Source: Candidatus Saccharimonadota bacterium | GTDB taxonomy: Bacteria > Patescibacteriota > Saccharimonadia > Saccharimonadales > OFTM59 | Assembly (NCBI GenBank): GCA_029260875.1 | Contig: JAJDCL010000031.1 | Coordinates: 1-42,694 of the forward strand | Direction of reading: 5' to 3' | DNA: 42,694 bases | Shown here: positions 39,585-42,694 of the stretch, in pieces | Layout of the letters: each line of letters begins with the position of its first letter | Numbering within the stretch: the first letter of the stretch is position 1 | The notes under the pieces: model-generated | Told to the model about the DNA's origin: nothing | The model's database searches: none | What the model saw: the letters and a program-made list of their open reading frames with translations, nothing else | Position numbers and translations under genes: made by a program

Positions 39585-39593
39585 TGGTATAAT
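39585..39593 (+). promoter_or_regulatory. Extended -10 (TGG-TATAAT) of the non-coding RNA
   Basis: TATAAT at 39588-39593 overlaps the stop region of the M50 gene. The predicted start (about 39600) coincides with the 5' base of the RNA's closing stem (39602). Confidence 0.7.
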
Positions 39594-39599
39594 AAAGAT

Positions 39600-39765
39600 C
39601 TGCTGGGCAGGGCCAGTAAATGATAATCTGAATACTTATCATTAGGGATTCCAATATCCGATAACACTGTGGTGTTATCGTGCGGAGACCCACCTGGGGA
39701 TTTTTAACCAGGTTGTCATCTGGCCCTCCAGCTATTTAAAAAGTCCGAGCAATCTCGGACTTTTT
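39600..39765 (+). ncRNA. Structured non-coding RNA with 6S-like architecture
   Basis: About 165 nt with own promoter and terminator, no ORF. Closing helix: GCTGG (39602-39606) with CCAGC (39728-39732) and GGGCCAG (39610-39616) with CTGGCCC (39720-39726). Apical arm: CGATAACAC/GTGTTATCG (39659-39667/39672-39680), preceded by GGG/CCC (39645-39647/39689-39691) and TCC/GGA. Between these helices lie two facing strands of about 28 nt, each with its own hairpin: AATGATAA/TTATCATT (39619-39643) and ACCTGG/CCAGGT (39692-39713). Closing stem, large central bubble and apical stem is the 6S RNA plan, but the identity is inference; it has no SRP, tmRNA or RNase P hallmarks. Confidence 0.6.
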
Positions 39766-39768: not shown

Positions 39769-39775
39769 TGGTCGG
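39769..39775. repeat. Left attachment-site core TGGTCGG (candidate attL)
   Basis: Identical to 42608-42614, which is the 3' end (CCGACCA on the minus strand) of tRNA-Pro. One nt after the bidirectional terminator. Confidence 0.6.
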
Positions 39776-39928
39776 CTTACTAAGACGGCTGTTGAACCTG
39801 TGCTTGTAACCCTTTACGATTTACTAACAAATTATAGCAAACTACGGTCAAGACTTGATACGACCAAGCTACTACTACAAAATATCGTTAAGCCAGATAC
39901 TATGGCAACACTTCAATTCTTGGTATAA
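39776..39928 (+). other. Displaced 3' end of recombinase gene (in circular form)
   Basis: Reading on from CGG of the core, this segment gives 50 sense codons (LTKTAVEPVLVTLYDLLTNY and a helical remainder ending ATLQFLV) and TAA at 39926-39928. In the integrated state it has no start codon of its own in this frame except a late ATG. The composition is that of a helical protein tail, consistent with the coiled coil that ends the recombinase. Confidence 0.5.
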
Positions 39929-39929
39929 T
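39921..39929 (+). promoter_or_regulatory. Extended -10 (TGG-TATAAT), leaderless promoter
   Basis: TATAAT at 39924-39929, 6 nt before ATG 39936. It overlaps the TAA that would end the recombinase in the circular form. Confidence 0.6.
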
Positions 39930-39935
39930 TAGTTT

Positions 39936-40085
39936 ATGAGTGACCAAGATGACACGACCAACGAACCAATAGCTTCACAAGACACCCCTGATAACACTTC
40001 AAATTGGGACGACAGAGTATCAACTGACCCGAATGGCGATACTTATATTAAAAATCCTGACCAGCAAGATATAGTCACAAAATAG
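39936..40085 (+). CDS. Small acidic protein, 49 aa
   Basis: MSDQDDTTNEPIASQDTPDN and on to a TAG at 40083-40085. Strongly acidic, no hydrophobic segment, rich in Asp, Thr, Asn and Gln. A clear promoter exactly placed for leaderless translation supports it as a gene. First gene of the element; could be a recombination directionality factor or DNA-mimic-like protein, but nothing in the sequence proves either. Confidence 0.55.
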   Translation: MSDQDDTTNEPIASQDTPDNTSNWDDRVSTDPNGDTYIKNPDQQDIVTK

Positions 40086-40173
40086 CCGTAGTTTAGATAT
40101 ACGATAACTGTGTTGAACCAGTAGTGACCAACTACCTACCAATAACTATAAACGAATGTTAGGAGTATTGACT

Positions 40174-40584
40174 ATGAGTAAAACACTAGATGAACAACAA
40201 TTTATTGAGTTACGGGCAAAAGGTTATAGTTTTCAGAAAATTGCTGATGAATTAAATATCAGCAAGCCAACACTAATTGAGTGGTCTAAAGACCCCGATA
40301 CTGGCAAAGACATACAAAATCAACGGACGCTGTTGCTTGACGACTTACAAGAACGCTATGCAATCACCAGACGCCACCGTATAGCATTATTTGGTGAGTT
40401 TCTGGACAAAGCCAAACAGGAACTAAATCAGCGTGATATGGCAGACTTACCGACCGACAGATTAATCACAATGGTAATTAAATTAAGCGACACACTAAAG
40501 GCAGATGAAACAGAACTAGAACTTAAAGGCGATTTTGAATTGCCTGTGTATTCGATAGGTGAACAAACTACTTGGAAAATCTAA
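40174..40584 (+). CDS. Helix-turn-helix protein of the element
   Basis: 136 aa from ATG 40174 (AGGAG 8 nt upstream; the in-frame ATG at 40156 comes before that site). HTH at about 12-36: RAKGYSFQKIADELNISKPT, then LIEWSK, as in resolvase-type and terminase-small-subunit HTHs. The rest is helical with an acidic C-terminus. Likely regulates the element or takes part in excision. Its neighbours are the divergent 48-aa gene and the recombinase. Confidence 0.75.
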   Translation: MSKTLDEQQFIELRAKGYSFQKIADELNISKPTLIEWSKDPDTGKDIQNQRTLLLDDLQERYAITRRHRIALFGEFLDKAKQELNQRDMADLPTDRLITMVIKLSDTLKADETELELKGDFELPVYSIGEQTTWKI

Positions 40585-40603
40585 CCAAAAGTTGTCCGAA
40601 ATT

Positions 40604-40750
40604 TTACTGATTAAGTGCAGTTCCGCCTAAGTGGCGTTCTGCTGATTGATGTGCACCGATGTCACTCCAGGTTGAACCTTCTGGTAAACCTAGTTCAGCT
40701 GCCTTTACGACTGCTGCTTCTGCTGATTGATGTGATTGTGGTGTTTCCAT
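40604..40750 (-). CDS. Small minus-strand protein, 48 aa
   Basis: Begins at ATG 40750, METPQSHQSAEAAVVKAAEL; stop TAA at 40606-40604. It holds two copies of a HQSAE motif (SHQSAEAA and AHQSAERH). A consensus promoter sits 7 nt upstream. Family not recognised; transcribed away from the recombinase, it may be the element's small regulator. Confidence 0.6.
   Translation of the reverse strand: METPQSHQSAEAAVVKAAELGLPEGSTWSDIGAHQSAERHLGGTALNQ
40637..40734. repeat. 17-bp direct repeat inside the 48-aa gene
   Basis: TTCTGCTGATTGATGTG at 40637-40653 and 40718-40734. It encodes the repeated HQSAE motif on the minus strand. Confidence 0.7.
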
Positions 40751-40757
40751 AGCAACT

Positions 40758-40786
40758 ATACTAACATAACTGTAATATAATGTCAA
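40758..40786 (-). promoter_or_regulatory. Consensus promoter of the 48-aa gene
   Basis: TTGACA (40786-40781), 17-bp spacer, TAGTAT (40763-40758) with TGT before it. The start falls on ATG 40750. It lies back to back with the recombinase promoter (40794-40802). Confidence 0.75.
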
Positions 40787-40793
40787 GCATCTG

Positions 40794-40802
40794 TGGTATA
40801 GT
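40794..40802 (+). promoter_or_regulatory. Extended -10 (TGG-TATAGT) of recombinase
   Basis: TATAGT at 40797-40802 ends 6 nt before ATG 40809, predicting leaderless mRNA. Only 10 bp separate it from the divergent -35, so the two promoters probably exclude each other. Confidence 0.5.
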
Positions 40803-40808
40803 CATTGT

Positions 40809-42694
40809 ATGGCAAGAAGTGATAAAGAAAAGAAAAATAAAAAAGTCCAGCGAACACCACTAACATTTGAACAGCAACAAAAAGCTGAACAACAAATAGC
40901 CACTAGCCTTGATGGTAACCCTGATCTGTTTAACTTACCTGAAAGCAGGCGTAGTATTGATGAACTGACGGAATACTTTACAAAAGCTAGTGAGGGTAGC
41001 CACCGAATGCTACCCAAAGAAAAACGGCGCTATGTAATGTATTTACGCAAATCCACCGATGATGAAGCAAAACAAGTTCGTTCACTTGATGACCAAGAAA
41101 CTGAATGCCAAACACTAGCAAAACAGCTACAAATAACTGGTCGCAAGGAAGATGTATTAATTGAAAGTGCATCTGCAAAAAAGTCTGGCAACAGACCAAT
41201 TTTTGAACAAATGCTGAATGGCTTTAGAACTGGTAGGTATCAGGGTCTACTGGCTTGGTCGCCTGACCGACTGTCACGCAATATGAAAGAAGCTGGCGAG
41301 ATAATAGAAATGATAGACCTTGAACAAATACAGGACTTACACTTTAAGACTTACCAGTTTGACAACACACCTAACGGCAAAATGTTACTAGGCATACTAT
41401 TCGCTACTTCTAAGCAGTATTCTGACAAATTAGCTGTTGATGTTGCCAGAGGTATTACTGGAAGTATCAAAGACGGCAAGTATATCGGACAGGTCAAAAA
41501 AGGTTACTATGCAGACACTAATACAGGCTATTTTATCCCCGATGCACATAATTGGCAGTTACTCCGACAAGCTGTGGTGCTTAGGCTATATGAGGGCAAA
41601 ACCAACCAAGAAGTTGCTGATTACTTGAACAGTTCGCACTTTAGTTATCGTAAACATCAGGAAGATGAATATAAAATTGCCAAAATGGACAAAAAGACTG
41701 TTGGCTTGATGTTTAGCGACCCTTTTTACTTCGGTATGTATAAGTATGGCGACAATATAGCTAACCTAAATGAATTGTATGACTTTTTACCTTTAATAAC
41801 GCCTGATGAATTTATAGCACTTGGACGCAATATAGCAGATAGCTTCAATGAACAGTTTGTTGGTCGTTCTAGTGATGCTAAAAGGCTAGACTTTGGTTTA
41901 TTGCGTGAAAAAGTCATTTGCGACTATTGCGATAAAATAATGGTATTCCAACGCACCAAGATTACTAAAGGCAAAAACACTGGTCATTATATGCTTAGTT
42001 TTTACTGCCGAAACAAAGAAAACTGCATAAGACATAATGATGCTGAAGCAATCAAAAAATATGGTAAAAAGCTATCTAAGAGTATTAGGGCAAAGTATGT
42101 AGTTTCACACATAGAATGGACATTGCGACACTGCACAAAAGACAGTATTAAGGCTTACAAGCAATATATCGGGCGACTAGAACAAAAATTAGCTGTAGAC
42201 AAGGAAATTGTTAAACGAAAGCTGGCAGATGCTAAGGCAGAATTAAAAAAGCAAGAAAATCTGTATGCAAAATATCAAAATCTACAACTGATTAGTTTAG
42301 CAGACTACAAGAAGCACCATAAGGGCAAACTGGAATATCACCAGAACCTAATTAATGTTTATAACTCTAGTATTGAGCAGTTACAGACAGAATTAGCAAT
42401 AATTAATAAGGGGTTACCGACACGCAAGCAATTTGTTGAACTAATAGGGTCGTATCTGGAAACACTACTAAACACCACAGATTTGATTGAAGAAGATGCT
42501 ATTTACCAAGAGTTAGTGTTGAGCCTACGGGCAGGTGACAATTCTATATCTGTTATAAAGCTAAATCCACCATACAATTTGATGGTGGATTTAGAAAAAG
42601 TTCCTTCTGGTCGGGGTGAAAGGACTCGAACCTTCGACCTCACGGCCCCCAGCCGTACGCGCTACCAACTGCGCTACACCCCGTTGTATTTGAA
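40809..42694 (+). CDS. Large serine recombinase, open at window end
   Basis: At least 628 codons, no stop in the window. After a 75-residue basic N-terminal extension comes the resolvase domain: catalytic S82 in YLRKSTDDE, SLDDQETEC, SASAKKSGNRPIF, and the arginine motif WSPDRLSRN. A recombinase domain (DVARGITGSIKDGKYIGQVK, about 215-330) and a zinc ribbon with C371, C374, C400 and C406 follow, then a long coiled coil (about 440-545). The last codons (from 42615) are the antisense of tRNA-Pro (GERTRTFDLTAPSRTRYQLR), a known artefact-like tail of tRNA-integrated recombinases. It catalyses integration and excision of the element. Confidence 0.92.
   Translation, partial: MARSDKEKKNKKVQRTPLTFEQQQKAEQQIATSLDGNPDLFNLPESRRSIDELTEYFTKASEGSHRMLPKEKRRYVMYLRKSTDDEAKQVRSLDDQETECQTLAKQLQITGRKEDVLIESASAKKSGNRPIFEQMLNGFRTGRYQGLLAWSPDRLSRNMKEAGEIIEMIDLEQIQDLHFKTYQFDNTPNGKMLLGILFATSKQYSDKLAVDVARGITGSIKDGKYIGQVKKGYYADTNTGYFIPDAHNWQLLRQAVVLRLYEGKTNQEVADYLNSSHFSYRKHQEDEYKIAKMDKKTVGLMFSDPFYFGMYKYGDNIANLNELYDFLPLITPDEFIALGRNIADSFNEQFVGRSSDAKRLDFGLLREKVICDYCDKIMVFQRTKITKGKNTGHYMLSFYCRNKENCIRHNDAEAIKKYGKKLSKSIRAKYVVSHIEWTLRHCTKDSIKAYKQYIGRLEQKLAVDKEIVKRKLADAKAELKKQENLYAKYQNLQLISLADYKKHHKGKLEYHQNLINVYNSSIEQLQTELAIINKGLPTRKQFVELIGSYLETLLNTTDLIEEDAIYQELVLSLRAGDNSISVIKLNPPYNLMVDLEKVPSGRGERTRTFDLTAPSRTRYQLRYTPLYL
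42608..42614. repeat. Right attachment-site core TGGTCGG (candidate attR)
   Basis: Coincides with discriminator, CCA end and last acceptor bases of tRNA-Pro. Pairs with 39769-39775. Confidence 0.6.
42608..42683 (-). tRNA. tRNA-Pro (anticodon GGG)
   Basis: Minus strand. Acceptor CGGGGTG/CACCCCG, anticodon stem TACGG-CTGGGGG-CCGTG (anticodon GGG, reads CCC), T arm GAAGG-TTCGAGT-CCTTT, discriminator A and encoded CCA (42610-42608). The gene is intact although the element lies right at its 3' end. Confidence 0.94.

Follow-up and report, generated by a model that had tools for sequence, protein, structure and literature searches.

A large serine recombinase gene with an apparent internal attP site in an integrative element of Candidatus Saccharimonadota

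An integrative element at a tRNA-Pro gene

The stretch of DNA analysed here, referred to as the window, spans 42,694 nucleotides and represents contig 25 of a genome of about 1 Mb held in 32 contigs. Within it, a 2.84-kb element (39,769 to 42,614) is located at a tRNA-Pro gene and comprises a small acidic open reading frame (ORF), a helix-turn-helix (HTH) protein, an antisense ORF and a large serine recombinase (LSR). Judging from its sequence, it is an integrative element that was inserted at the 3' end of the tRNA gene by its own LSR. The original prediction placed a copy of TGGTCGG at each end of the element, and this is observed: the attL core, a sequence repeat, occupies 39,769 to 39,775, and the attR core occupies 42,608 to 42,614, where it is the antisense of the tRNA-Pro 3' end CCGACCA. 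The tRNA-Pro(GGG) gene (42,608 to 42,683, reverse strand) serves as the attB gene and is kept intact on integration.

The recombinase body lies on the forward strand from 40,809 to 42,614 (602 codons including the core) and contains catalytic, recombinase, zinc-ribbon and coiled-coil parts. To its left are an antisense ORF of 60 amino acids (40,604 to 40,786, reverse strand), for which no family match was found, and a protein of 142 amino acids (40,156 to 40,584, forward strand) with weak HTH and terminase-small-subunit-like matches. The acidic ORF encodes 49 amino acids (39,936 to 40,085, forward strand). Promoter and terminator scans gave results no better than shuffle level.

A terminator-like hairpin (AAAAAGTCCGAG..CTCGGACTTTTT; 39,738 to 39,765, no strand assigned) abuts attL on the left. 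Since unoccupied tRNA-Pro and tRNA-Gly genes of congeners are directly followed by hairpins of this type, the hairpin is read as the displaced terminator of the tRNA-Pro gene. In many occupied sites, that of the window among them, an equivalent hairpin is found on the left side of attL, and no empty site with boundaries other than those proposed was encountered among the congener tRNAs. For the window's own insertion, a clean empty site was not found in the sole congener G001. The left flank is shared with that genome (83%), where, however, tRNA-Pro(GGG) and a partial copy follow about 460 bp further on in the opposite orientation, which makes it uninformative as an empty site. The region to the left of the element, from about 39,590 to 39,735, may encode a structured non-coding RNA; it lies within a stretch that is 83% conserved in G001 and has no Rfam match at the gathering threshold.

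As originally described, the recombinase frame that begins at 40,809 has no stop and runs into the antisense of tRNA-Pro(GGG), continuing to the contig end at 42,694, 11 nt past the tRNA. The protein read in the integrated state is at least 628 amino acids long; since the contig breaks off so close to the tRNA, neither the integrated C-terminus nor the right flank of this insertion can be read. When position 42,614 is joined to 39,776, the frame stays open for 50 codons and then meets a TAA (39,926 to 39,928), yielding the predicted LSR of 652 amino acids. The displaced 3' end of the gene, hereafter the tail, would therefore consist of 50 codons and a stop at 39,776 to 39,928 on the forward strand, 7 nt short of the acidic ORF. 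Taken by itself, the join is weak evidence because random joins remain open for at least 45 codons 22% of the time, and for 45 to 55 codons 3.4% of the time. The forward strand of the window holds 15 copies of TGGTCG, and only the TGGTCGG copy at 39,769 has GAAC at the nt-26 position. The junction is considered real because 14 related elements carry homologous in-frame tails, with NAAC at nt 26, at their opposite end. While one join might be due to chance, the family-wide pattern rules chance out.

A conserved tail in related elements

The first four relatives found are at 60-80% identity, and a search of 393 genomes of the same class then gave about twenty. Fifteen elements, comprising that of the window and 14 close relatives with both ends sequenced, form the set compared here. 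Where the right end is intact, the recombinase of close relatives enters the antisense of a tRNA 3' end, with the exception of L049, which continues into an adjacent element. Among close homologues whose right end is intact, none has a stop of its own ahead of the junction. The targets include tRNA-Pro (TGG, GGG), tRNA-Ser (GGA), tRNA-Leu (CAG) and tRNA-Gln (TTG, CTG), with cores of TGGTCGG (Pro), TGGCGGA (Ser), TGGTGC (Leu) and TGGCTG (Gln). A homologous tail of 50-52 amino acids is found at the opposite end of the element, 2.8-11.3 kb away in elements that range from 2.8 to 11.3 kb, and a join mediated by a core of 6-10 nt is in frame in every one of the 15. The integrated form ends in a stop or in antisense-tRNA codons, which add between 1 and about 43 residues. 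These homologous in-frame tails strongly support the claim that attP lies inside the recombinase gene and that integration exchanges the C-terminus; as a statement about anatomy, and on the strength of the sequences compared, this can be regarded as nearly certain and as general in the family. In most close relatives the tail is followed by a counterpart of the acidic ORF, located 7-22 nt beyond the tail stop. A recurrent DTSNWDD-like motif was noted in the acidic ORF of the window (39,936 to 40,085) and its equivalents, directly after the tail stop.

Body and tail also occur contiguously. Joined forms are found in a remnant (L111) and in tandem arrays (L160 and L049/L124); L070 and L080 are further cases, as their left ends continue the body ends of other elements. 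The remnant, in genome G004, retains as one uninterrupted piece the last body codons, TGGTCGA, the tail with its stop, and the acidic ORF. Genome G700 has a tandem pair of elements beside tRNA-Pro; here the outer recombinase reads in frame, with no interruption, into the tail of the inner element, and the inner recombinase ends in the tRNA. An in-frame fusion across families was seen in G113, between a recombinase from the family of the window and the left end of an element from a different family. The search of related Patescibacteria that was originally suggested has recovered the tail at the far end of 14 elements as well as directly attached to a body. When circular or free forms were sought among viral contigs (by single sequence and by alignment), phages and plasmids, distant LSRs were the only matches. 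LSR arrays at tRNA genes in which the outer recombinase is fused in frame to the tail of its neighbour were seen at L160 (605 to 8,389, reverse strand), L049/L124, L070 and L080; such fusions constitute natural tail swapping between families.

The manner in which the two halves have changed argues that they belong to one gene. In ten elements the body enters the core as ..SG(R)| and in five as ..SWS|, and the phase of the tail agrees with this core codon phase in 15 of 15. On a tree of the bodies, which included three further elements, about three phase changes are needed and well-supported branches force at least two. Since the halves are kilobases apart when integrated, paired changes of this kind would be senseless unless body and tail were translated together. 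The tail is also under purifying selection, with pN lower than pS in 105 of 105 pairs (which are not independent of one another), although it evolves faster than the body (median pN/pS of 0.63 versus 0.37). Along the joined gene, synonymous divergence is about 0.8 and near saturation. It drops to 0.26-0.32 over the final codons ahead of the core, is lowest over an inverted repeat at 42,561 to 42,594, and recovers about 12 codons past the core. The dip suggests that the att site imposes a constraint at the DNA level around the junction, while the recovery suggests that the remaining 40 or so tail codons are constrained as protein.

In the window recombinase, matches to Pfam PF00239 and PF07508 and to the integrase family PHROG 95 were obtained; together with an AlphaFold2 (AF2) model and its PDB matches, they identify the Resolvase catalytic domain, the Recombinase domain and the coiled-coil/zinc-ribbon C-terminal part of an LSR. 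The model was made for L049, a native protein in which the body carries a borrowed tail. In it, the LSR fold ends at about residue 600, just before the junction, and is followed by a helical tail of low confidence. Serine integrase complexes are the best PDB matches, with low whole-chain TM-scores as expected for a flexible, multi-domain enzyme. As the fold is complete ahead of the junction, integration would remove an appendage rather than a domain of known fold. According to the model, the LSR fold survives integration and only the appended helical tail is lost.

Attachment sites, tRNA targeting and distant families

In LSRs, the motif bound by the zinc ribbon lies 5 bp further outward in attP than in attB, a rule worked out for LI integrase and observed in most other LSRs (Rutherford 2013, PMC3783163). 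The same displacement is present here. On the element side, NAAC begins 26 nt from the start of the core in 15 of 15 close elements; in the window it belongs to a GAACCT motif in the right half-site of attP (39,794 to 39,799, forward strand), a DNA-level signal that overlaps tail codons. On the tRNA side, NAAC is supplied by the T-arm 21 nt from the core start (GAACC at 42,628 to 42,632 in the window). Since the shifted motif coincides with the T-arm, the match suggests an explanation for the choice of tRNA 3' ends by this family, and a motif that matches the universal T-arm at a 5-bp displacement would be a simple reason for LSRs to target many different tRNAs. Most of the distant elements tabulated also have NAAC at nt 26, as GAAC or AAAC; the exceptions are L077, which has GAAA, and L078, which lacks the motif. 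Inspection of the left half-site by eye revealed no consistent mirrored motif.

A consequence of this layout is that the terminator of the tRNA is displaced on integration. The last body codons contain a 13-nt perfect inverted repeat (42,561 to 42,594, reverse strand) that forms a strong hairpin on the tRNA strand (z of -4.5). The hairpin is partly covarying, with some compensatory changes in relatives, and may serve as a replacement terminator for the tRNA, as part of the left arm of attP, or as both.

More distant LSRs of the class have frames that likewise end in antisense tRNAs, and their elements carry conserved tails of their own at the upstream end; one of these, ELQNLLKLF..(E)LIIY, is shared by seven tRNA-Gly elements. 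When the search was extended to the phylum, antisense tRNAs terminated the frames of 19 of the 23 best matches examined. This share should not be taken as unbiased, the 23 having been picked for their resemblance to the query and a few of them being loci already met in the class search. The layout is not universal, since in at least one remote LSR, L006 (27% identity), the frame is closed by a stop of its own ahead of a tRNA. Three more LSR genes were observed in the window's own genome (G000), namely L003, L005 and L007 on contigs C30, C3 and C21; their frames end inside antisense tRNA-Leu, tRNA-Arg and tRNA-Glu, respectively.

Possible roles of the exchanged C-terminus

The explanation favoured here, and considered reasonably probable, is that of an element with attP in its own LSR gene, whose tail acts as a state-specific regulatory domain and whose C-terminal swap latches integration. 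In the circle, the gene would encode 652 amino acids including the conserved, mostly helical tail of 50 amino acids, followed by the small acidic ORF. Crossover at TGGTCGG would cut the gene after codon 602 or so, leave the tail at the opposite end of the element, and put in its place either a stop or antisense-tRNA codons without meaning. The tailed enzyme made by the circle would be the form selected for integration (attP x attB), and the integrated element would make only the tail-less enzyme, with a bias against further attP x attB recombination that leaves the element latched. Excision could then proceed through the tail-less enzyme and a separate factor, or through tailed enzyme supplied by another copy. 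Tandem arrays would partly undo the swap because the outer element borrows the tail of its neighbour. That an appendage can set the direction of an LSR is known from fusions of a recombination directionality factor (RDF) to the C-terminus of an integrase (Olorunniji 2017, PMC5737554). For the narrower proposition that the C-terminal swap is a functional state switch, on which selection on the tail is the one finding to bear, the chances are about even. The layout also means that the acidic ORF would share a transcript with the recombinase only in the circle; this ORF is a candidate directionality factor or circle-specific gene.

Alternatively, the tail-less enzyme may be inactive, leaving the integrated element trapped until another copy supplies complete enzyme, as has been proposed for the archaeal SSV-type integrases (PMC8371274). 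Purifying selection indicates that the tail matters, and the tandem arrays and multi-LSR genomes could provide tailed enzyme in trans. This alternative is nonetheless doubtful: unlike the archaeal case, the catalytic and DNA-binding parts remain in one polypeptide and only the appended tail goes. It is also conceivable, if unlikely, that the tail blocks attL x attR recombination, and that its loss would allow the enzyme to carry out excision with no additional directionality factor. C-terminal fusions do control LSR direction (PMC5737554) and no obvious RDF is recognizable by family matches in the 2.8-kb element, but integration would then be unstable unless the enzyme were silenced, and the small acidic ORF after the tail could itself be an RDF. 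An extended form of this idea, in which a built-in directional switch operates throughout Patescibacteria, with tailed enzyme integrating, tail-less enzyme excising in the absence of any separate factor, and tandem arrays being reset by the donation of tails, is equally unlikely.

Under a third alternative, placing attP in the 3' end of the gene merely keeps the site with the enzyme and the C-terminus is immaterial. The freely varying integrated extensions (1 to about 43 residues) show no visible constraint and the attP arms overlap codons, as this would have it; conservation far past the att site and the compensated frame changes make it quite improbable. An independent ORF was ruled out for the tail, which has no conserved start and has compensated phases, and the notion of a separate small protein with a fortuitous in-frame join is scarcely credible, for although the tail of L048 starts with ATG at the junction, most tails lack an evident start codon nearby, the phase agrees in 15 of 15 with compensation, and contiguous natural forms exist.

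Among known systems, the phiC31, Bxb1 and A118/LI integrases share with the present enzyme the catalytic/recombinase/zinc-ribbon/coiled-coil fold, the short core and the 5-bp shift of the motif between attP and attB. In these well-known large serine integrases attP lies beside the gene, whereas here it is internal to the gene, with the 3' end of a tRNA gene serving as attB. Target sites in tRNA genes are also used by SSV1-type elements. In the integration-dependent immunity of phages BPs and Brujita, attP is internal to the repressor gene and integration by a tyrosine integrase alters the C-terminus of the repressor. The original prediction drew a parallel to these phages, which holds insofar as the C-terminus of an element protein is changed through an internal attP, but not as the closest comparison, since the protein is a repressor there and a recombinase here; the archaeal 'suicidal' tyrosine integrases of the SSV1, pTN3 and pT26-2 type are nearer (PMC8371274). 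In those integrases, too, the att site is inside the integrase gene and integration splits it. The present gene resembles them in that its att core is internal and parts of the gene are separated on integration, and differs in encoding a serine rather than a tyrosine recombinase with Phage_integr_3, in a bacterial (Patescibacteria) rather than an archaeal host. Moreover, the archaeal split parts an N-terminal portion from the catalytic domain, while here the LSR domains stay together. Artificial integrase-RDF fusions (PMC5737554) are alike in that a C-terminal appendage alters the capability of an LSR; they are man-made and permanent, whereas the present appendage is natural and is removed by the reaction itself.

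A review has termed self-disrupting recombinases exclusive to archaea (PMC8371274), and no serine integrase with attP inside its own gene was found in the literature covered (open-licence papers). The layout therefore appears to be the first of the self-disrupting type both for bacteria and for the serine class; LSR integration and self-splitting are each known separately, and their combination is rated as new. Several LSR families share it within a large and poorly known phylum, and the natural paired forms of one enzyme make direction control in serine integrases testable. The layout also carries a warning for the mining of genome-editing tools: an LSR gene annotated in an integrated element may be missing its genuine C-terminus.

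Shortened recombinase genes were noted as well, at L114 (7,057 to 7,531), L115 (5,109 to 5,559) and L120 (4,081 to 4,776), with coordinates given on the recombinase strand. In these apparent non-autonomous derivatives the catalytic middle of the recombinase is missing, and a short N-terminal stretch and the att-bearing C-terminal part are retained. In L114 and L115 the missing middle corresponds to codons 45 to 455, approximately, and the tail is still present at the other end.
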